This document shows, piece after piece, positions 50,060 to 60,876 of a stretch of DNA of 64,000 nt (position 1 is its first letter; the number at the start of each line of letters is the position of its first letter). A program made the translations under genes and the position numbers. Origin of the DNA: Tunicatimonas pelagia (GTDB taxonomy: Bacteria; Bacteroidota; Bacteroidia; Cytophagales; Cyclobacteriaceae). The DNA is taken from the NCBI RefSeq assembly GCF_030506325.1, contig NZ_CP120683.1, positions 5,646,501 to 5,710,500 on the forward strand, written 5' to 3'. Below the pieces are notes generated by a model. The model searched no databases, was not told the DNA's origin, and saw nothing but the letters and a program-made list of their open reading frames with translations.

Positions 50060-52504
50060 TTATTCATTCCTCAGGGAGTCTACCGGGTTCGCCAATGCGG
50101 CTCGGACTGATTGGTAGCTCACCGTTAGCCAGGCAATCAGTAAGGCAGAAAATCCGGCTAGCACAAATATTCCTATTCCTACTTCGGTACGGTAAGCAAA
50201 ATTCTCTAACCACTGGGTGGCTAACCAGTACGATATTGGCGTAGCGATTACAAAGGCAATCAGCACCAGTCGGATAAAGTCCTTGGAAAGCAGATACGTG
50301 ATTTGCTGTACAGATGCTCCCAGCACTTTCCGGATACCCACCTCCTTGGTTCGTTGGGAGGCTACGAAAGAGGCCAGTCCTAGTAAACCTAAACAGGCCA
50401 CCAGAATGGCTAACACCGTGAATACGCTAAGTACCTTCCCCAGCCGTTGCTCTGCCCGGAACAGACGATCGAAATCTTCATCAAGAAAAGAGTAGACGAA
50501 AGGGTTATCTGGTTCAAACTGTGACCATATTTCTCTTACCTGCTCTACACCATCGGAAGCATCTCCAGTGGTAAGTCGTACCGCTACGTAGTCGCTTAGG
50601 AAGGTAGGGGAGAAGATCTTAAAAGCAATGGGTTTCACCCACTGATCAAACGACTCTAGATGAAAGTTTTTAATCACACCAAGTACTTGCAATCGTTCCT
50701 CATCATCAGCTCCCTGGTTTTTGATAATAGTCTTCCCAACGGGATCGGTCAGGCCAAGTACCCTTACCGCAGATTCATTCAGTAGTATTCCTTCCCGGTC
50801 AGAAGCCCGATCTTCCTGAAAACCGCGACCAGCAATTACCTCTAAGCCCAAGGTCGCAACATAATCGGGGTCAATTAGGAACCACTGCATACCCTGGCCA
50901 CCACTGGAGCCTTCGGGTCGAATATCGCGCATTACCCGATGTGGTTGAGATGGCATACCCGTAGCAAAACTCACCTGCTTCACCCGCGATTGATTCATCA
51001 GGGCATCCTTAAAATCTTCCCAGCGTTCCTGAATCTCCTTGTCATTTTTGATCACTAACACATTTTCCCGATCGTAGCCAATATCCTCAGTCTGAATAAA
51101 CCGAAGCTGCTGAATGACCAGCCCAGTGGTGATAATCAGACCAATAGATACGGCAAACTGGAAAATGATGAGCAGGTTACGCAGCTTTCCAGTCCGTAAA
51201 GAAGAAGCTGTTTTGCCCTTGAGTACCGCTACCGGGCGAAAAGCCGAAAGATAGAACGCGGGGTAACTACCGGCAATCAACCCTACCAAAATAACGCCCC
51301 CCACTAGCGATAGTAGTAAGCTTGGATGATTGAACCAATCAAATACAAGTTCTTTACCAGTCAAGGTATTGAAAGGAGTTCGTAAAGCCTCCACGCTACC
51401 AAGAGCCAATAAAACCGCTACTAGGGTGATTAGAATCGACTCAAATAGAAACTGAAAAACTAAATGCAAGCGGGGTGATCCCAGCACTTTCCGAACACCT
51501 ACCTCTTTCGCTCGTCGGTTTGCCTGAGCAGTTGATAGGTTCATAAAGTTGATACAGGCGAGTAGTAGAATAAGTACGCCAACAATTACTAGCGTGTATA
51601 CTGTAGTGATGCTTCCGTTGGCTTGGTGCTCGCGTAGTAAGTCGGAGTGCAAATGAATATCGGTGACTGCTTGTAATTCGTACGTCAGGTTAGTATCCTC
51701 ATTGGGGCCAAAATCATTTGTGTCTAGAAATGGTTTAGCGTATTGTTCAGCAATTTGATTGAGCTTATCGGCCAAGCTAGCCATCCGTTCTGGGTTGTCT
51801 ACTACGTCAGGACGGACTTTCAAGTAGGTATGCATGATGTTCCAAGCCCAGTTGCCACCGTCAGTAATTTCCTGATAACCTACTGTTGGAACCAGCATAT
51901 CGAAGGGAAAGTGAGTAGCCGAAGGAGGGGCAACCACCCCTGTAATCTGGCGAGCAGTACGATTTCCTCCAAACAGAATTTCTTTACCCAGCACTTCATC
52001 GCGTTCTACCGATCCAATTCCGAAGTATCGCTCGGCAGTAGCCTTTGTGAGTACTATTGCGTTAGGTACTTGTAGTGCCTGTTTATCACCAGCAATTAGG
52101 TTGAAATCCAGTACCCCTAAGAACGAAGAATCAGCAATGTAAATGGAGGTTTCTCGGAAAACCTTTTCTTGCCCATCATTTTCATCATTGGGCAGGCGCA
52201 TGGTGGAATGATTCCAAGTAAACACCCGAGCTACGGATTCTACTTCGGGAATATCTTGTTTGATGGCTTCGTACAGTGGTGGGGGAGTAGTGGCCAACTG
52301 GTAGCCTTCGCCACCGTTGGTAACAACACGGAAAACTCGTTCGACATCCTGATGAAATTGGTCGTAGCTCATTTCATCTACCACGTACCAGGTGATAAAT
52401 AGACTGGTTGCCAATCCTAAAGCTAATCCTACAATATTAATCGTAGTATGAAACTTTTGCCGATAAGCGTGACGTAGTGCGAGAGTGAAGTATTTTTTAA
52501 TCAT
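50060..52504 (-). CDS. MacB/FtsX-type ABC transporter permease, subtype A (A2)
   Basis: 814 residues. N-terminal membrane segment (INIVGLALGLATSLFITWYVV), a large periplasmic MacB_PCD domain (about 45-270), then an FtsX domain with three membrane segments around FMNLSTAQANRRAKEVGVRKVLGS. A second periplasmic domain follows, and a second FtsX domain (RTKEVGIRKVLGASVQQI) ends in NPVDSLRNE. No ATPase gene is in the window. Such two-unit permeases move lipids, peptides or drugs, or act in stress responses. Second-half phrases (NFAYRTEVGIGIFVLAG) match the product of 55801-58185 best. It shares a promoter region with the small gene at 52584-53033. Confidence 0.9.
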   Translation of the reverse strand: MIKKYFTLALRHAYRQKFHTTINIVGLALGLATSLFITWYVVDEMSYDQFHQDVERVFRVVTNGGEGYQLATTPPPLYEAIKQDIPEVESVARVFTWNHSTMRLPNDENDGQEKVFRETSIYIADSSFLGVLDFNLIAGDKQALQVPNAIVLTKATAERYFGIGSVERDEVLGKEILFGGNRTARQITGVVAPPSATHFPFDMLVPTVGYQEITDGGNWAWNIMHTYLKVRPDVVDNPERMASLADKLNQIAEQYAKPFLDTNDFGPNEDTNLTYELQAVTDIHLHSDLLREHQANGSITTVYTLVIVGVLILLLACINFMNLSTAQANRRAKEVGVRKVLGSPRLHLVFQFLFESILITLVAVLLALGSVEALRTPFNTLTGKELVFDWFNHPSLLLSLVGGVILVGLIAGSYPAFYLSAFRPVAVLKGKTASSLRTGKLRNLLIIFQFAVSIGLIITTGLVIQQLRFIQTEDIGYDRENVLVIKNDKEIQERWEDFKDALMNQSRVKQVSFATGMPSQPHRVMRDIRPEGSSGGQGMQWFLIDPDYVATLGLEVIAGRGFQEDRASDREGILLNESAVRVLGLTDPVGKTIIKNQGADDEERLQVLGVIKNFHLESFDQWVKPIAFKIFSPTFLSDYVAVRLTTGDASDGVEQVREIWSQFEPDNPFVYSFLDEDFDRLFRAEQRLGKVLSVFTVLAILVACLGLLGLASFVASQRTKEVGIRKVLGASVQQITYLLSKDFIRLVLIAFVIATPISYWLATQWLENFAYRTEVGIGIFVLAGFSALLIAWLTVSYQSVRAALANPVDSLRNE

Positions 52505-53065: not shown

Positions 53066-53082
53066 TGCAAGCCTGATTCCAA
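53066..53082 (-). promoter_or_regulatory. Sigma-54 promoter (-24/-12)
   Basis: On the minus strand TTGGAATCAGGCTTGCA: GG at -24, exactly 10 bases, GC at -12, with TTGCA as in the consensus. The -24 box lacks the usual CAC. Predicted start near 53055, 22 bases before the ATG at 53033. The composite upstream motif lies about 102-140 bp upstream. Confidence 0.7.
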
Positions 53083-53156: not shown

Positions 53157-53195
53157 TGTTCGTTTTTGATACAGTGCGGTGTCTGTTTCTGATAC
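53157..53195 (-). promoter_or_regulatory. Composite enhancer-like site, two 16-bp boxes
   Basis: On the minus strand, box 1 GTATCAGAAACAGACA (53180-53195), spacer CCGCACT, box 2 GTATCAAAAACGAACA (53157-53172). Boxes are 23 bp apart, about two helical turns. A near-identical arrangement occurs at 60818-60856. The position is typical for a bacterial enhancer-binding protein acting on sigma-54. Confidence 0.7.
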
Positions 53196-53243
53196 GCTGA
53201 GCCAAGTAGTTAATGTATTCTCTGTTCCCTGAGTCTTGCCCGA

Positions 53244-55712
53244 TTACTCATTTCGAAGACTATCTACTGGATTAGCCAAAGCGGCCTTCACTGACTGATA
53301 ACTAACTGTAAGCAGGGCGACCAGTGCTGAGAAACCGATAGCTACTACGAACGTACTAGCTCCAATATCAATCTGATAGGTGAAATTCATGAGCCACTGC
53401 TGCATTAGGTAGTAGGCGATAGGGGCAGCGAGCATGAACGCGATCCCTACTAACACGATAAATTCTTTAGAGAACAAAACCAGGATACTGCTAATGGAGG
53501 CTCCTAGCACCTTACGAATACCTACTTCTTTGGTGCGACGTACCGCCATGAAAGAAATTAGTCCGTAGAGACCCAAACAGCCAATGAAAATGGTGATTCC
53601 CGCTAGTATTTTAAATAATTGGGTGAGCCGGGCTTCTTCTTGATAGTAGGCGGCAATGCTTTCATCCAAAAAGCGATAGTCAAAAATATACTCAGGATAG
53701 GTAGCTGCCCAGGTCGCTTCTAGCTGCTGAATGGTTTCCGATAAGCTGGTAGATGCGTCTTTGGCAGATGCTAGGTTGAGCTTTATATTGACCGTATTGT
53801 AATCTCGTGGTCTCATCATAAAGCCAAGATAATTAATGTCTCCCTTCAGCGATCCAGTATGGAAATTCTCCACTACTCCAATAACCGTATAGGCATTTTC
53901 ACCTCCAGTTAATACAGTTTCGTTTAGAGCCTCAACTGGTTCGGAAAATCCCATTCTTTCACTTAGTTTTCGGTTGAGAATAACTTGTTTTGAAGTGTCA
54001 CTGGGAAGGAAATTTCTCCCGGCAAGTAAAGGAATTTGAAAAAGCTCTAGGTACTGCTCATCAATAGATTGTCGTTCAAATACGGTGCCCTCACTACCTT
54101 CCGCAGCACTCTTCCTTTTTATATCCCAGTGCGAGGTACTTCGCCTAAATCCAGATGGAGAACTGGAAGCAAAGCTAACGGATGCTACTGCCGGATTATT
54201 TTTCCATTGATTTTCCAATGTTTCTAGAGTGGATAATTCTGGGTTTTTCCCTTCGGGCAGGTGAGCGGTAATTACCGCTTCTTTATCAAAACCCAGCTCG
54301 GCATTGCGGAAGTAATCCATTTGCTTTATGACGATGATGGTGCTGATAATAAAAACTTGGGCGATTACGAACTGGAGCGTAACTAGTCCTCGTCGTAATT
54401 GTATACCTCGTTGGGTTCGTCCGCCTATTTTATTTTTAAGAGCAGCTACCGGATTGAACCGCGACATCATTAAGGCAGGGTAGATACCGGCTAGCAAAGC
54501 AACCCCAACAATGATAGCGATCAGGGAAATCAGCACGAACGAATCGGATAGTAACAACTCGGTGGTTTCTACTTGAAGTAAATCACTGGCGGATACAGTT
54601 ACTAGTTCTGCAGCGCCCAGAGCCAGTACCCCCGCCGTTAGCGTTACGATAAATGTTTCTCCCAGAAATTGAAAAGTCAGTTGGGCGCGGTTGCCCCCCA
54701 TCGTTTTACGAATACCTACCTCCTTAGAACGAAGTACTGACTGGGCTGTACTCAGATTGACAAAGTTGATACTTGCCGTACCGATGACAAACAGGCCAAT
54801 AATTAGTAATGCCCAGATGATTTCCGAACTGACCGTACGAGAGCGATAGTTACCGAAGCGAGCGTCAGTGTGTACCTCTCGAAGGGGCTGTAACTTATAG
54901 AGGCGGGTTTTTGCTAACTTTTCATCTACTCGAGCAGCATGAATTTCTAGTATCTGGGCCTCGGCTTCTGCAACAGTTATGCCTTCATTAAGCAGAACAT
55001 AACCGTAGTGTTCGTCTGAAACTGAATACCAGTCGGAAAAGCTGTTTTTAAACAGTCCTTCGGTATTCAGCGTGGCATAAGACACCATAATCTTAAATGG
55101 AAAATCCGAATTAGCCGGAAGGTCAGTGACTACGCCAGTCACCTTAACATCAATTAGATTATCTAATTTAAGAGTGTTGCCGAGCGCATTTCCTTCCGGA
55201 AAATATTTATTGGCCAGTGTCTGATTTAATACCGCGGTAAATGGTTCTTTCAGTGCAGTTTCAGGATTGCCAGCGATCCAGCGAAAACCAACATCTTTGA
55301 AATCAAAGACGCGAAAGAAATTTGCATCGGCAAAGGTAATCCCATCATCTTCCTGAAACTGCCGTTGAACTTCATCAGTGGTACCATCAATAATAGATAC
55401 TTGCATATCCCCTATATGAAATGTAGCAGTAACCCCCTTAGCTATGGTCATGTCTTCTTTCAAGGCATCAGGAACCGGATAAGAAATACCCGCCCGATAT
55501 TCGGTGGGGCCATCTCCTCCGCTCACTCGTACCACCCGATAAATTCGGTCGGCATCTGAGTGAAACTGGTCGTAGCTTCGCTCGTAGCGCACAATTGTCA
55601 GAATAATTAGTACACAACTAATTCCGAGAGCTAACCCCAGAACGTTCACACTGGTAGTAACCCGGTTTTTGAGTAAATGCCGTAGGGCGGTTTTTAGATA
55701 ATTCCTGAACAT
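53244..55712 (-). CDS. MacB/FtsX-type ABC transporter permease, subtype B (B2)
   Basis: 822 residues. First membrane segment VNVLGLALGISCVLIILTIV, periplasmic domain with RSYDQFHSDADRIYRVVRV, then an FtsX domain with FVNLSTAQSVLRSKEVGIRKTMGGNRAQL. A second unit ends FMAVRRTKEVGIRKVLGASISSI and NPVDSLRNE. In the second half it matches the product of 58261-60648 (FMAERKTKEIGVRKVLGASVTNI, NFTYKIDLGI) more closely than its direct neighbours. No promoter is seen in the 88-bp spacer upstream, so it should be read from the promoter at 60729-60744. Confidence 0.9.
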   Translation of the reverse strand: MFRNYLKTALRHLLKNRVTTSVNVLGLALGISCVLIILTIVRYERSYDQFHSDADRIYRVVRVSGGDGPTEYRAGISYPVPDALKEDMTIAKGVTATFHIGDMQVSIIDGTTDEVQRQFQEDDGITFADANFFRVFDFKDVGFRWIAGNPETALKEPFTAVLNQTLANKYFPEGNALGNTLKLDNLIDVKVTGVVTDLPANSDFPFKIMVSYATLNTEGLFKNSFSDWYSVSDEHYGYVLLNEGITVAEAEAQILEIHAARVDEKLAKTRLYKLQPLREVHTDARFGNYRSRTVSSEIIWALLIIGLFVIGTASINFVNLSTAQSVLRSKEVGIRKTMGGNRAQLTFQFLGETFIVTLTAGVLALGAAELVTVSASDLLQVETTELLLSDSFVLISLIAIIVGVALLAGIYPALMMSRFNPVAALKNKIGGRTQRGIQLRRGLVTLQFVIAQVFIISTIIVIKQMDYFRNAELGFDKEAVITAHLPEGKNPELSTLETLENQWKNNPAVASVSFASSSPSGFRRSTSHWDIKRKSAAEGSEGTVFERQSIDEQYLELFQIPLLAGRNFLPSDTSKQVILNRKLSERMGFSEPVEALNETVLTGGENAYTVIGVVENFHTGSLKGDINYLGFMMRPRDYNTVNIKLNLASAKDASTSLSETIQQLEATWAATYPEYIFDYRFLDESIAAYYQEEARLTQLFKILAGITIFIGCLGLYGLISFMAVRRTKEVGIRKVLGASISSILVLFSKEFIVLVGIAFMLAAPIAYYLMQQWLMNFTYQIDIGASTFVVAIGFSALVALLTVSYQSVKAALANPVDSLRNE

Positions 55713-55810
55713 AGTGAATGATCATTAATGATGGATGGGTAATGATTGACGACTAATGAGTAATATTTCTGGCGGTTCATTCATCATTAGTCACTAATCA
55801 TTATTCATTA
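55713..55810. repeat. Heptad hairpin, ATGAnTA type (copy f)
   Basis: Fills the spacer between permease B2 start and permease A1 stop. Left arm about 55714-55763; right arm about 55778-55806 runs into the A1 stop codon (complement of TTATTCATT). The loop (ATATTTCTGGCGGTTC) is nearly the same as that of copy g, so the two share a recent origin. Confidence 0.7.
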
Positions 55811-58185
55811 CGAAGACTATCTACCGGGTTGGCTAGGGCGGCTTTTATTGACTGAAAGCTTACGGTCATTCCTGCAATCAATAGGGCAACCACTCCGGCT
55901 AGTACAAATATTCCTAATTTAATCTCGGTGCGGTAGGCAAAATCAGCTAGCCACTGCTGCATCGCCCAGTAGGCCAGAGGAATAGCTACAATAAAAGCAA
56001 TGGCAACCAGCCGAGTGAAATCTTGAGAAAGCAATAGTACAATGTTTTTTACCGAAGCACCCAACACTTTCCGAATACCAATCTCCTTTGTGCGCTGTTC
56101 CGCCATAAAAGCCGCTAAAGCTAGTAGACCCAGACAGGCAATAATAATGGCTAATAAAGTGAAGCCACCGAAGATGATTCCTACTCGTTGGTCAGCCTGG
56201 AACAGTTGGTCAAAATCATCGTCCAGAAACGAATAATCAAACGGAGTGCCGTCCGCGTGCTGTTTCCATTGCTGTTCTAGCATAGCTAGGGTTTGGGGTA
56301 AGTTGTCAGAGGCTACCTTTACCTCTACAAAACTCTGTTCATCGGAAAGAATGATTACCAGAGGTTCTACGGCTGAGTGCAGAGATTTATAGTGAAAATC
56401 CTCTGCTACCCCAACCACTTGAGCTTCATACATATCGCCAATCTTTAACCTACTACCTAACGGGGTGCTCAACCCTAAGGCTTTCACCGCCTGTTCGTTC
56501 AGAATCACTACACCGTACGCCGAGTCTGAGGCTACTTCGCGCGAGAAGTTGCGCCCATCTTTCAGGCGAATGCCCATCGTAGATAGATAATCATGGCTGG
56601 CCGGAAGGCTGCTGAGTACTAATGCATCCTCTTCCCGGTAAATGCTATCGTTCTCAGTTTGTGGAGTGAAGATATACTCCGGATAGCCCGTCAGAGGCGA
56701 TACATCCGAAAAGCTCATACTTAATACCTCACTTTGATTTAGCAAAGCATTGTGAAAGGCATCGGTATTAGTTCCTAAGGCATCGCCAGCGTTCAGTACA
56801 ATAATGTTCTCTTTGTTAAAGCCCAGGTCTTTGTTACGAATAAACTGCAATTGCTCGTAAACCACTAGTGTGCAGATAATCAGCCCAATGGAAATAACAA
56901 ATTGAAAGACTACCAAGGAATTACGCAACCAAGTGTTTTTGCTGCTTCCCAATCGATGCCCTCTCATTACTTCAGCTGGCTTGAAACTAGTTAGGTAAAA
57001 AGCCGGGTAACTACCGGCCAGTATTCCTACAACAATGCCTAACAGCAAGGCTGCCGGAAGAAACCAAGCGGTGAATAGCGGTACGTGAATATCTTTACCC
57101 GCAATATGGCTAAAAGGAATTCTGAGCAATTCGGCTAACCCTAACGCCAGAAGCACCGAAAGTAAACTGAGCAGAACAGATTCTCCCAAAAACTGATGAA
57201 CCAGGGTAGTACGCATCGATCCCATTGTTTTGCGGATGCCTATCTCCTTGGCTCGGTCGGCGGAGCGAGCAGTAGAGAGGTTCATAAAGTTGGTGCTGGC
57301 AATCAGTAAAATGAAGAGCGCGATTGCCCCGAAAATATACAAATACTTAACGTTGCCGTTGGGTTCAAACTCGCCCAGAATGTGGGAGTACAGATGTATG
57401 TCAGTAAGCGGCTGGGTAAACATTTCTATCACGTAACCTCTTGCCTGAAACATTTCGTACTCTACCACATACTTTTTCAGTAAAGGGTCTAAACGAGCAT
57501 CTACTTCTTCTATGCGCGCATCTTCGTACAGCGAAAAGTAGGTAGCCGTAATAAGATTACCCCAGTTTTCGGTCTTACTTCTGGGATCAGACAAATAAGA
57601 ATACACAATATCAAAATGAATGTGCGAGGTTTCGGGTACTGGCTCCATTATACCAGTTACCTGAAAAGGTTTATCATCAATCAGAATACTTTGCCCCAGT
57701 GGGTTTTCCTCCTGGAAGTACTTGCGAGCCATTGCCTCCGTCATTACTACGGCGTTGGGCTCTTGTAGCACTTGGTTCGGGTTACCTTCTTTCAGAGGAA
57801 AGCTGAACAGACGGAAGAAATCGGGATCAGCCGCCAGCACCTTCTGTTCCTTGATAATTATGTCGTCTTTCTGGAAGATTTTATCGGCCTGATTGATTCT
57901 GACAACCATTTCTACCTGAGGGACTTCATCCTTTAGCGTGCCAGCCACCGCAGGGCTAACGGCTGCTCCTACAAATCCACTCTCCCCCATTTCTAAACGA
58001 GTAGCCAAGCGATAGATTTGGTCAGCCTTCTGATGAAAGCGGTCGTAGCTCAGTTCCTGTAAAACATATACTGAGATTAGCAAGGTACAAGCCATACCGA
58101 TCGCTAACCCTAAAATGTTAATAATGGTGTAGAACGGTCGCTTGCGTAAGCTACGGAAGGCGATAGTGAAGTGATTTCTTATCAT
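55801..58185 (-). CDS. MacB/FtsX-type ABC transporter permease, subtype A (A1)
   Basis: 794 residues. First membrane segment INILGLAIGMACTLLISVYV, periplasmic domain with LSYDRFHQKADQIYRLATRL, then FMNLSTARSADRAKEIGIRKTMGSM and a second FtsX unit with FMAEQRTKEIGIRKVLGASVKNI. It ends NPVDSLRNE. The second half shares NFAYRTEI/V-LGIFVLAG with the product of 50060-52504. It is the second gene of the transcript starting at about 60717, separated from the first gene by 75 bp with a heptad hairpin. Confidence 0.9.
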   Translation of the reverse strand: MIRNHFTIAFRSLRKRPFYTIINILGLAIGMACTLLISVYVLQELSYDRFHQKADQIYRLATRLEMGESGFVGAAVSPAVAGTLKDEVPQVEMVVRINQADKIFQKDDIIIKEQKVLAADPDFFRLFSFPLKEGNPNQVLQEPNAVVMTEAMARKYFQEENPLGQSILIDDKPFQVTGIMEPVPETSHIHFDIVYSYLSDPRSKTENWGNLITATYFSLYEDARIEEVDARLDPLLKKYVVEYEMFQARGYVIEMFTQPLTDIHLYSHILGEFEPNGNVKYLYIFGAIALFILLIASTNFMNLSTARSADRAKEIGIRKTMGSMRTTLVHQFLGESVLLSLLSVLLALGLAELLRIPFSHIAGKDIHVPLFTAWFLPAALLLGIVVGILAGSYPAFYLTSFKPAEVMRGHRLGSSKNTWLRNSLVVFQFVISIGLIICTLVVYEQLQFIRNKDLGFNKENIIVLNAGDALGTNTDAFHNALLNQSEVLSMSFSDVSPLTGYPEYIFTPQTENDSIYREEDALVLSSLPASHDYLSTMGIRLKDGRNFSREVASDSAYGVVILNEQAVKALGLSTPLGSRLKIGDMYEAQVVGVAEDFHYKSLHSAVEPLVIILSDEQSFVEVKVASDNLPQTLAMLEQQWKQHADGTPFDYSFLDDDFDQLFQADQRVGIIFGGFTLLAIIIACLGLLALAAFMAEQRTKEIGIRKVLGASVKNIVLLLSQDFTRLVAIAFIVAIPLAYWAMQQWLADFAYRTEIKLGIFVLAGVVALLIAGMTVSFQSIKAALANPVDSLRNE

Positions 58186-58186
58186 A

Positions 58187-58269
58187 ACATTTTGATGATT
58201 GATGAGTAATGACTAATGATTAATATCTTTGGCGGTTCATTTATCATTATTCACTAATCATTACTCATT
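58187..58269. repeat. Heptad hairpin, ATGAnTA type (copy g)
   Basis: Between permease A1 start and permease B1 stop. The left arm is four heptads from 58194 (ATGATTG, ATGAGTA, ATGACTA, ATGATTA). The right arm (58238-58269) is their near reverse complement, about 18 of 21 pairs in the best part, and includes the B1 stop codon. Loop shared with copy f. Confidence 0.75.
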
Positions 58270-60648
58270 CCGCAAACTATCTACAGGATTCGCCAGAGCG
58301 GCTTTGATCGATTGATAGCTTACGGTGAGTAAAGCGATAATTAGCGTGGCTCCGATACCGATCAGAAATAAGCCGATCCCCAAATCAATTTTATAAGTAA
58401 AGTTTTGTAACCAGCCACTCATCACTAAGTAAACCAGTGGGGCAGCCACAACGAAGGCGCTGCCAATGAGCTTGATAAACTCTATTGAGAACAAGCCAAT
58501 AATGTTGGTTACCGAAGCACCGAGTACTTTGCGAACTCCAATTTCTTTGGTCTTGCGTTCCGCCATAAAGGTAATGAGCCCATACAGGCCCAGGCAGCCG
58601 ATAAAGACCACTACTAGCGAAGCCCCGCCCAGCAGGCGCGATAACCGTCGTTCACTCGTATAAAACTCAGCAATTTCATCGTCGGCAAATATATAGGCGA
58701 AGGTGTACTCAGGATAGACAGTTTTCCATTGTTGTTCAATGGATTCTAGGGTCTCGGACAGGTTCGGTAAGCTGACCTGAGCGATGACTGCCTCGTAGCC
58801 CCGGGCATCGTTGAGAACCACGGTGGGAACAATCGCTTCCCGGAGTGAGCGGGTATGAAAGTCCTTTACCACACCCACAATGGGAATATCCGCGTCCCAC
58901 AAATTGATGGTTCTACCCACAATCTCTTCCGGAGTTAGTCCGTGACTAGCAGCTAAGGTTTCGTTCACTAGCACCTGGGTGAGCGTGTCGGTATCCGTCG
59001 TTAGGGGCGACCCGGCTATTACTGGGATTTGAAAAATGTCCAAATAATGGATGTCAGCGGCTTTTAGGTGGGTGGTTCGCTTTTCAGTTTCCCCTTCCAG
59101 TTTATAGCCCGTGGCCGACACCCATCCTGAGGCAGGGTTTGCGTAGCCTAAACTGGCTTTCTCCACGGCTGCGATCTGGGTGAGTTGTTGGCGAAAAGTC
59201 CGCTTCTGATCGAGCGTGCTTTCGGGTAAACGCATGGTCAATATAGCTTCTGAGCGAAATCCTAAGTTGGTTTGCTGTACATACTGCATCTGCCGAAATA
59301 GTACCAGCGTACCGATAATAAAAACCTGGGCAATTATAAACTGAAGCACCACTAGCCCTTTGCGAAGCGTAATGCCTCGGGTACGCTGTCCCTGCAATAC
59401 GTTTCGAAAGGTATGGACGGGCTTAAATCCTGACAGTACCGAGGCCGGATACCAGCCCGAAAGCAAACTGATAATCACCACTAAACCAATAAGCAGGGCG
59501 AGTAGTCTGGGGTTCTCCAGCAATTGTAACTCTAAGGAGCTGCTAAGCAAAGGGTTAACCTTGAGTAATAATAATTCTACTCCACCCAAGGCAATCAGGG
59601 CAGATAGTATGGTTATAATTGTAGTTTCACTTAGGAACTGACGAAGCAGTTGAGAGCGGGTGCTACCCAGCACTTTACGGACTCCTACTTCTTTGGCTCG
59701 TTGGGTAGCGGTGGCGGTAGCTAGGTTAACGAAGTTGATGCAGGCAATTAGAATGAGAAATACAGCTACCGCCGTCAGGATTCGTATTGTTTGCCAACTC
59801 ACACCTTGGTAGGTGTAGGTAGAAAAGCGCGGGTCAAAGTGCATCTCCCGCAAGGGTTGCAGATAGTGCTTGAATTCTTGTTCGTCGAGCGGGTCACCGT
59901 AGTGTTTTTCTATAAACACCGGAAACTGTGCGTCAATACTTTCGGGCGATTGCCTCTCAGCTAATAGCACATAGGCTTGATCGCCACTGCTAGTGCTGCC
60001 CCAATGCCCTTCCCAATCGCGAGTAAGATCGGAAATGAATATATCGAACGGGAGATCAGTATTGTCAGGATAATTCTCTATCACTCCGGTGACGATCAGC
60101 TCTTTCTCCCGATTTAAGGTAATTGTTTGTCCAATCGGGTCGCGTTCCCCGAAGTACTTTTGAGCCTGACGTTCGGATAGTACAATTTCATTCGGTTCAT
60201 CCAGTGCCGTAGCAGCATCACCTTTAATAAAGGAGCGGTCAAAGATCTGAAAGAACTGCGGCTCTACGTAGGCAATGTACTCATCTTCCTGAAAACTTTT
60301 TGCCTCGCCATTCTCATCGATAATGGTAAGTAGCGTTCCTTCCCAAGCGATCTCACCCACTAAAGCTACAGCTTCTACTGCGGGAAAATCAGTACGAAAA
60401 GCTTCGGGCAATGGTAACGGAACGCCCGGCATACCATCTCCAGAGGCTAGATCAGTTGACTCTTTTACAATCCGGTAGATACGATCGCGATTCGTATGGT
60501 AGCTATCAAAACTCAGCCAGTGACGAATCAGCAGAAAAAGCACCAGACTACAAGTAATGCCCAACGATAAGCCTAATACATTAATAGTGGTATAGCTCTT
60601 ATGCTTCCAGAGAGTACGAACAGCGGTTTTCCAGTAGTTACGCAACAT
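58261..60648 (-). CDS. MacB/FtsX-type ABC transporter permease, subtype B (B1)
   Basis: 795 residues. First membrane segment INVLGLSLGITCSLVLFLLI, periplasmic domain with LSFDSYHTNRDRIYRIVKE, then FVNLATATATQRAKEVGVRKVLGSTRSQL. The second FtsX unit is FMAERKTKEIGVRKVLGASVTNI, and it ends NPVDSLRNE. First gene of the array; its 5' leader (about 69 bases) contains a heptad hairpin and is preceded by a sigma-54 promoter and enhancer-like site. No ATPase partner nearby; energy coupling must come from an unlinked subunit, or the protein acts otherwise. Confidence 0.9.
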   Translation of the reverse strand: MLRNYWKTAVRTLWKHKSYTTINVLGLSLGITCSLVLFLLIRHWLSFDSYHTNRDRIYRIVKESTDLASGDGMPGVPLPLPEAFRTDFPAVEAVALVGEIAWEGTLLTIIDENGEAKSFQEDEYIAYVEPQFFQIFDRSFIKGDAATALDEPNEIVLSERQAQKYFGERDPIGQTITLNREKELIVTGVIENYPDNTDLPFDIFISDLTRDWEGHWGSTSSGDQAYVLLAERQSPESIDAQFPVFIEKHYGDPLDEQEFKHYLQPLREMHFDPRFSTYTYQGVSWQTIRILTAVAVFLILIACINFVNLATATATQRAKEVGVRKVLGSTRSQLLRQFLSETTIITILSALIALGGVELLLLKVNPLLSSSLELQLLENPRLLALLIGLVVIISLLSGWYPASVLSGFKPVHTFRNVLQGQRTRGITLRKGLVVLQFIIAQVFIIGTLVLFRQMQYVQQTNLGFRSEAILTMRLPESTLDQKRTFRQQLTQIAAVEKASLGYANPASGWVSATGYKLEGETEKRTTHLKAADIHYLDIFQIPVIAGSPLTTDTDTLTQVLVNETLAASHGLTPEEIVGRTINLWDADIPIVGVVKDFHTRSLREAIVPTVVLNDARGYEAVIAQVSLPNLSETLESIEQQWKTVYPEYTFAYIFADDEIAEFYTSERRLSRLLGGASLVVVFIGCLGLYGLITFMAERKTKEIGVRKVLGASVTNIIGLFSIEFIKLIGSAFVVAAPLVYLVMSGWLQNFTYKIDLGIGLFLIGIGATLIIALLTVSYQSIKAALANPVDSLRNE

Positions 60649-60651
60649 AAT

Positions 60652-60726
60652 CTAATAATTGATGAATAATGAGTAATGATTGATGACACCCATTATTCAT
60701 TCGTCATTAATCATTACTCATTATAC
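60652..60726. repeat. Heptad hairpin, ATGAnTA type (copy h)
   Basis: Left arm about 60656-60687 (ATGAATA, ATGAGTA, ATGATTG, ATGAC), right arm about 60691-60725. The best aligned part pairs 18 of 19. It lies between the predicted transcription start (60717) and the B1 start codon, so most of it is in the mRNA leader. Confidence 0.75.
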
Positions 60727-60728
60727 TG

Positions 60729-60744
60729 GCAACTTTACCTCCAA
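60729..60744 (-). promoter_or_regulatory. Sigma-54 promoter (-24/-12)
   Basis: On the minus strand TTGGAGGTAAAGTTGC: GG, 10 bases, GC. Predicted start near 60717, 69 bases before the B1 ATG at 60648. The same class as the one at 53066-53082, with the same distance to the upstream site. Confidence 0.7.
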
Positions 60745-60817
60745 TCTTGGAGAAAAATGTAAGTACTTGATTTATAAATTGTTAATTGCCCATTGCTAAT
60801 TATTCATTGAATGAAGT

Positions 60818-60856
60818 GTATCATTTTCATAACAGTGCGGTGTTCGGTTTTGATAC
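60818..60856 (-). promoter_or_regulatory. Composite enhancer-like site, two boxes
   Basis: On the minus strand box 1 GTATCAAAACCGAACA (60841-60856), spacer CCGCACT, box 2 degenerate GTTATGAAAATGATAC (60818-60833). Box 1 matches box 2 of the site at 53157-53195 in 15 of 16 bases, and the 7-base spacer is identical. It lies about 101-139 bp upstream of the predicted start. Confidence 0.7.
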
Positions 60857-60876
60857 AGTAGATGGTGTTTTGAAAT

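Follow-up and report, generated by a model that had tools for sequence, protein, structure and literature searches.

Organization of the permease array

The window, meaning the whole 64,000-nucleotide stretch of Tunicatimonas pelagia DNA that was analysed, carries a minus-strand array of large permeases with two putative sigma-54 promoters, each preceded upstream by a two-box site (Table 1). Direct reading of the minus-strand sequence located both promoters, and showed both sites to be where the first-pass annotation of this DNA had placed them. Site 1 is present as described there, but its distal box begins at 60857, one base further than the end that had been given, and the boxes, described as 16 bp long, are by the present reading 17 and 18 bp in site 1. 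The period between the two boxes is 23 bp in both window sites, and a whole two-box site spans about 41 bp. Agreement at 27 of 41 positions makes sites 1 and 2 related; "near-identical", the earlier wording, was too strong.

Table 1. Features of the array and its two promoter regions (window positions).
Feature	Position	Strand	Description
Permease B1	58261..60648	-	795 aa, MacB_PCD and FtsX; behind promoter 1
Permease A1	55801..58185	-	794 aa; 75 bp past B1, presumed same transcript
Permease B2	53244..55712	-	822 aa; 88 bp past A1, presumed same transcript
P149	52584..53033	-	small protein; directly behind site 2
Permease A2	50060..52504	-	814 aa; behind site 2 and P149
P347	61000..62043	+	BNR/YCF48-like; divergent from B1; adjoins regulator gene in genomes G042 and G114
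Putative sigma-54 promoter 1	60729..60744	-	TTGGAGGTAAAGTTGC; GG-N10-GC, TTGG-N8-TTGC form; position and form compared in relatives
Site 1 distal box	60841..60857	-	TGTATCAAAACCGAACA, 17 bp
Site 1 proximal box	60817..60834	-	TGTTATGAAAATGATACA, 18 bp; two mismatches to TGTNNCGNNNNCGNTACA
Putative sigma-54 promoter 2	53067..53082	-	TTGGAATCAGGCTTGC; GG-N10-GC, TTGG-N8-TTGC form
Site 2 distal box	53180..53196	-	CGTATCAGAAACAGACA
Site 2 proximal box	53157..53173	-	TGTATCAAAAACGAACA
IHF-like sequence	60760..60772	-	AATCAAGTACTTA, boxes-promoter interval of site 1; weak evidence
Leader hairpin	60664..60726	-	promoter 1 to B1 start codon; fold of 60645-60728, -24.1 kcal/mol

Permeases of this kind are abundant in the T. 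pelagia genome (7.29 Mb), with 86 matches to B1, 78 of them near full length (at least 2300 nt). The four window permeases are nearest to the ADOP model (NCBIfam TIGR03434). They share with it a near full-length alignment over the 803-position profile and duplicated MacB_PCD and FtsX stretches, but their scores of 274.5-305.5 bits fall short of the 622.3-bit cut-off, and they are ADOP-like, not ADOP. DarB of the darobactin exporter DarBCD was second best for all four; in a paralogous locus (L083, described below), the adaptor and one ATPase had DarC and DarD as their best models. All Dar models remained below cut-off, and a further difference from that exporter is that none of the five genes behind the two promoters encodes an ATPase or adaptor. 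Since the permeases are ADOP-, DarB- and MacB-like yet under the cut-offs, their earlier classification as "lipid- or drug-type" remains a guess. We know of no established function or regulator for such permease arrays. Duplicated orphan permeases of unknown function are reported to be annotated in two Dyadobacter genomes, at 28 and 33 genes (PMC11573002). A Pfam search with P149 gave no match.

Conservation and spacing of the two-box sites

A two-box site followed by a TGG-N8-TTG promoter was found before B1-type permeases in three genera. Both sites recur in a related array in genomes G002 and G003, where P347 is divergent at site 1 and a P149 relative lies behind site 2 (71% and 68% identity, respectively); G003 has a 94% identical relative of A2 at the equivalent place. 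Between the sites, the permeases differ somewhat from those of the window in order and kind. Alignment showed that the boxes and promoter are kept while the interval between them has diverged. The distal box of site 1 aligns with those of G002 and G003 and takes other forms in G015, G042, G107, G114 and G149. The proximal-box consensus TGTNNCGNNNNCGNTACA occurs exactly in the G015, G114 and G149 loci and at C1:6166567 of the T. pelagia genome. P347 is present at the locus in T. pelagia, G002, G003, G015, G042 and G114, and did not appear in the G107 and G149 stretches that were fetched. A third T. pelagia site (C1:6166556) stands before a 181-aa gene followed by four further permeases, a separate array. 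It had been stated beforehand that the promoter assignment would fall if orthologous permeases lacked the motif upstream; the relatives carry it there.

Fourteen two-box sites, which are related by descent, were measured for the distance separating the promoter from the end of box 2; it was 71-75 bp in 11 of them. At the B1 end it is 72 bp in T. pelagia and 73 bp in both G002 and G003; at the second sites of the same genomes it is 73, 71 and 72 bp. Spacing is 73 bp in each of G114, G107 and G149, and 72 and 75 bp at the two sites of G015, whose second two-box site lies between P347 and an A1-like permease. The exceptions are G042 (61 bp), C1:6166556 (167 bp; L119) and a similar site, with no orthology implied, at G003:C22:71537 (166 bp; L174). 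A repeat-like element between boxes and promoter at the latter two adds about 94 bp, or about nine helical turns, and the exceptions overall differ by about one and about nine helical turns. These shifts, which comprise two kinds of length change, would fit looping on a fixed DNA face. Spacings near 61, 72 and 167 bp offer a test of such helical phasing.

The -12 element is TTGC at 11 of the 14 sites, TTGG in G107 and TTGA in G149 and at the second G015 site, so that these three fail GG-N10-GC. With the -12 element relaxed, TGG-N8-TTG was present at an offset of 100-103 or 110-116 from box 1 in 12 of 12 sites without the repeat-like element, compared to 0-0.5% of shuffles per site, the offset ranges and relaxed -12 having been fixed after the sites had been seen. 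The interval was also compared with the IHF consensus, WATCAANNNNTTR. With this consensus, exact matches on the same strand at an offset of 84-85 were found in three of seven sites, with one mismatch in one more. At the remaining three the match is on the other strand, at another place or poor; the best at T. pelagia site 2 has two mismatches.

Downstream of promoter 1, the predicted start 12 nt past the -12 element (~60717) falls inside the 5' arm of the B1 leader hairpin. Near-perfect AT-rich inverted repeats of at least 14 nt were seen in 11 of 81 permease upstream regions and 12 of 232 upstream regions of other genes. Words like AATGAATAAT/TAATGATTA occurred in 12 of the 81 and 6 of the 232.

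Occurrence of the motifs relative to chance

TTGG-N8-TTGC alone was found five times in the window against 2.66 expected, a count reached by 11 of 100 shuffles and not beyond chance. Upstream counts (400 bp) used 81 of the 86 B1 matches, five short fragments being omitted; site 2 falls outside these regions because it lies before P149, not a permease. The promoter pattern was present in 2/81 on the sense strand and 1/81 on the other strand, and a general sigma-54 rule for these permeases was rejected. At C1:446677, TTGGATGTCTTGTTGC stands 75 bp before an aligned permease start, without boxes, and may sit inside a longer open frame of that gene.

The loose composite GTATCA-N90-120-TTGG-N8-TTGC gave four matches in the whole T. 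pelagia genome, two of them those of the window, against two for a reversed-pattern control, and was not enriched. Across 39 genomes it matched in 34, mostly by chance judging by the controls; the informative matches were the pairs of array sites in G002 and G003. As neither promoter pattern nor composite is enriched, the evidence comes from the boxes and from conservation.

The two-box pattern was built from the window sites and their relatives. At up to two mismatches it was found twice in the window against 0.03 expected, and none of 100 shuffles reached two. At up to one mismatch it had four matches in the T. pelagia genome, each preceding permease genes: both window sites, C1:6166556 and C1:349136, with P149 or the 181-aa gene preceding the permeases in two cases. 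There were two matches in G002 and five in G003 (two of these being both strands of one place), and the reversed-pattern control gave none in these three genomes. Over 39 genomes including that of T. pelagia, 19 matches (11 in these three, eight single ones elsewhere) compared with three for the control; most of the eight may be chance. The pattern of the second box at up to two mismatches was not enriched as a count over the 39 genomes (11 matches, 16 in the control); at 0-1 mismatches it had three matches, all before permeases. One single two-box match (G014:C4) directly precedes a regulator gene of the L085/L083/L086 family, which is described below.

A candidate activator

RpoN is encoded in the T. 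pelagia genome (PF04552 at C1:910192, E 1.5e-56), where a second, weak PF04552 match is interrupted by a stop. Sigma-54 activator domains had 23 matches, 15 of them strong (below E 1e-60). None lies in the window, in agreement with the first-pass annotation, which had seen no activator gene there. The most likely activator of the window sites, judged from gene neighbourhoods in related genomes and from regulator grouping, is the NtrC-type regulator at C1:6630299-6631657 (L085). Like NtrC-type systems, it has a receiver, a Sigma54_activat (AAA+) domain and a Fis-type HTH, and the window has two dyad-like boxes upstream of GG-N10-GC at the usual distance. Differences are the GAFTDA motif in place of GAFTGA, found in all nine L085-group proteins with the threonine kept, and targets that are permease arrays without an ATPase. 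L085 also scored below cut-off in the best 25 of 88 NCBIfam models (AtoC, ZraR, NtrC and others). L085 is not an equivalog of AtoC or ZraR, the activator types named earlier for binding tests (356.3 vs 714 and 350.6 vs 760 bits).

In a tree of 39 activators, L083, L085 and L086 formed separate groups, each with members in T. pelagia, G001, G002, G003 and G015; the five-member L085 group had support of 100/100. L085 relatives at E <= 1e-165 were found in 10 of the 390 family genomes examined, namely four of the window's genus and G015, G042, G107, G114, G149 and G319. Nine of them grouped together in an enlarged tree with support of 96/76 (the SH-aLRT value of 76 being weak), and G319 fell outside.

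In all five L085-group genomes outside the genus (G015, G042, G107, G114 and G149), a B1-type permease (49-59% identity) lies near the regulator, and a two-box site with TGG-N8-TTG downstream stands before that permease. Regulator and permease are adjacent in G015 and G149, separated only by P347 in G042 and G114, and by a 107-aa frame in G107. The G042 locus, with P347-regulator-kinase divergent from B1-B2-permease-A2, has the window order apart from the regulator, the kinase and one permease. In G114 P347 and the long regulator frame overlap by 4 nt at the start of the latter, which suggests joint transcription. The G319 regulator neighbours a B1 relative of 38% identity, and a single dyad lies between the two.

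A kinase is encoded near the L085-type regulator in related genera, with none seen in G114, and also near those of G002 and G003. No frame of at least 90 aa in 16 kb around T. pelagia L085, or in 9.7 kb around its G001 counterpart, is related to the known partner kinases. Within the window's genus the permease arrays keep the sites and the regulator gene is found at another place; the simplest history would be that regulator and kinase left the array locus in this genus. The L085-type box is absent from the four regulator loci of the genus, so the activator assignment there comes from the grouping alone. G001, of the same genus, has the regulator; it lacks a two-box site at one mismatch, and its best B1 relatives, at 37-40% identity (E <= 1e-150), are not close.

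Proposed mechanism and alternative explanations

We propose, with a probability of about 0.8, that each site is the upstream activating sequence of a dedicated sigma-54 activator, an L085-type response regulator. The initial reading, one regulon with a sigma-54 promoter and two-box site before B1-A1-B2 and a second such pair ahead of the remaining array genes, is supported by the conserved boxes, promoter, spacing and regulator neighbourhood across genera. L085-type dimers would bind the two boxes, which at 23 bp apart lie on nearly the same DNA face, and assemble as a ring. The interval DNA would loop, an IHF/HU-like protein perhaps assisting, and the RpoN-polymerase complex at TTGG-N8-TTGC would be opened through ATP hydrolysis. 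B1-A1-B2 would be transcribed from promoter 1 and P149-A2 from promoter 2, and the third site would serve the separate four-permease array behind the 181-aa gene. Regulator, kinase (none seen in G114), often P347, and permeases share one locus in related genera; in the window's genus the regulator would have been relocated. A signal and a transported substrate are presumed. From sequence, this appears to be a conserved sigma-54 regulatory system of known kind, for which the activator and regulon are newly proposed.

The same enhancer mechanism might instead be driven by the paralog L086 (C1:355030-356448), which we consider unlikely. A two-box site with the same spacing precedes a permease near the L086 gene (C1:349136), another lies in G003 near an L086 relative (G003:C13:105796, L175; matching the pattern on both strands), and TGTATCA, the left half of the box in the window, is similar to the L086 box TGTNYCAAAATGAAACA. 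This L086 box, conserved in five of five relatives at the gene start or shortly upstream, however differs in its right half and was found at up to one mismatch in none of the nine L085 loci examined. In five other genomes, moreover, it is a gene of the L085 group that sits beside the B1-type permease and site. Neither two-box site in the L086 neighbourhoods showed a clear sigma-54 promoter. L086 could act on the window sites in addition to L085.

That the boxes are operators of another DNA-binding protein, either a repressor or a sigma-70 activator, with GG-N10-GC matching by chance, appears very improbable. GG-N10-GC alone is indeed not beyond chance, either in the window or in the regions upstream of 81 permeases, but the placement of TGG-N8-TTG at set offsets in all 12 sites without the repeat-like element, and the sigma-54 activator gene accompanying the site in five other genomes, argue against such operators. 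We give scarcely any weight to the conserved block being a mobile or structural repeat that rides with duplicated permease arrays and lacks a regulatory role. The permeases are heavily duplicated, as the 86 matches show, and some permease leaders have hairpins; the two-box pattern, however, is found at four places in 7.3 Mb at up to one mismatch, which is not a large repeat family, and boxes and spacing are kept where the interval to the promoter has diverged.

Enrichment of sigma-54 promoters at COG0577 FtsX-like permeases, including in the class Bacteroidia, has been reported and called the first evidence there, so a general link between sigma-54 and FtsX-like permeases is already in print (PMC12316311). 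The window shows the same link between permease family and sigma-54; the portion of that report covered here names no activator, enhancer motif or regulon. While the mechanism itself is ordinary sigma-54 biology, the activator assignment, regulon, motif and dyad differences were not found described in the literature searched, which included few subscription papers. A named activator with its sites and target arrays makes the regulation directly testable.

Possible dyad specificity of the paralogous regulators

The L083 locus (C1:2835874-2840560) encodes a regulator, a kinase, an HlyD-type adaptor, two ABC ATPases and an OEP-family outer membrane protein. Strong phylogenetic footprints with TGTACG-type dyads are present there in five genomes, as TTGGCATATTTGTTGGCA in four and a variant in G015. 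L083 was itself considered as the window activator, as its half-sites looked alike, and was rejected once the footprints proved to contain a different dyad, 16 bp long.

Intergenic parts of the fetched loci were scanned for the dyads of the three regulators at up to one mismatch. The 16-bp dyad TGTWCG-N4-CGWACA was found in 7 of 17 L083 loci and in none of the five L086 or nine L085 loci. TGTNYCANAATGAAACA (17 bp) occurred in all five L086 loci and in neither the 17 L083 nor the nine L085 loci. TGTNNCG-N4-CGNTACA (18 bp) was present in four of nine L085 loci, one of five L086 loci (that of T. pelagia) and 0/17 L083 loci. Because the dyads were derived from some of the scanned loci, agreement between each dyad and its own regulator is partly built in, and it is the near-zero counts for the other regulators that are informative. 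The ten L083 loci without the 16-bp dyad all lie outside the five nearest genomes. The 18-bp dyad is missing from five L085 loci: that of G042, where the box has two mismatches, and those of the four genomes in the window's genus, which carry the array at another place.

These differences suggest that related systems may address different subsets of the permease repertoire (78 near-full-length copies). Paralogous regulators with different dyads also provide a natural test of how sigma-54 activators gain specificity after duplication. A bolder version, which we consider doubtful, is that the diverged 16-, 18- and 17-bp dyads of L083, L085 and L086 form an address code splitting about 80 ADOP-like permeases into separately switched sets, with ATPase, adaptor and outer-membrane partners supplied from the L083 locus. 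Service of the window array by the ATPases, adaptor and outer membrane protein of that locus is a guess. If such a code exists, orphan permease arrays would act as interchangeable modules on a single exporter chassis, selected by envelope signals.

Another type of permease front was seen at C1:463557, C1:466829 and C1:3986154 (L089, L090 and L104), where one dyad like TGTATCAGAATGAAACA is followed by TTGGCACANTATTNTC, a -24-like element that lacks GC at -12. The gene behind it at C1:466829 is permease-like at its beginning only. At G018:C19:445259-445288 (L195), TGTATCGTAAACGATACA, a perfect 18-bp dyad, stands directly before a regulator gene of the same family.
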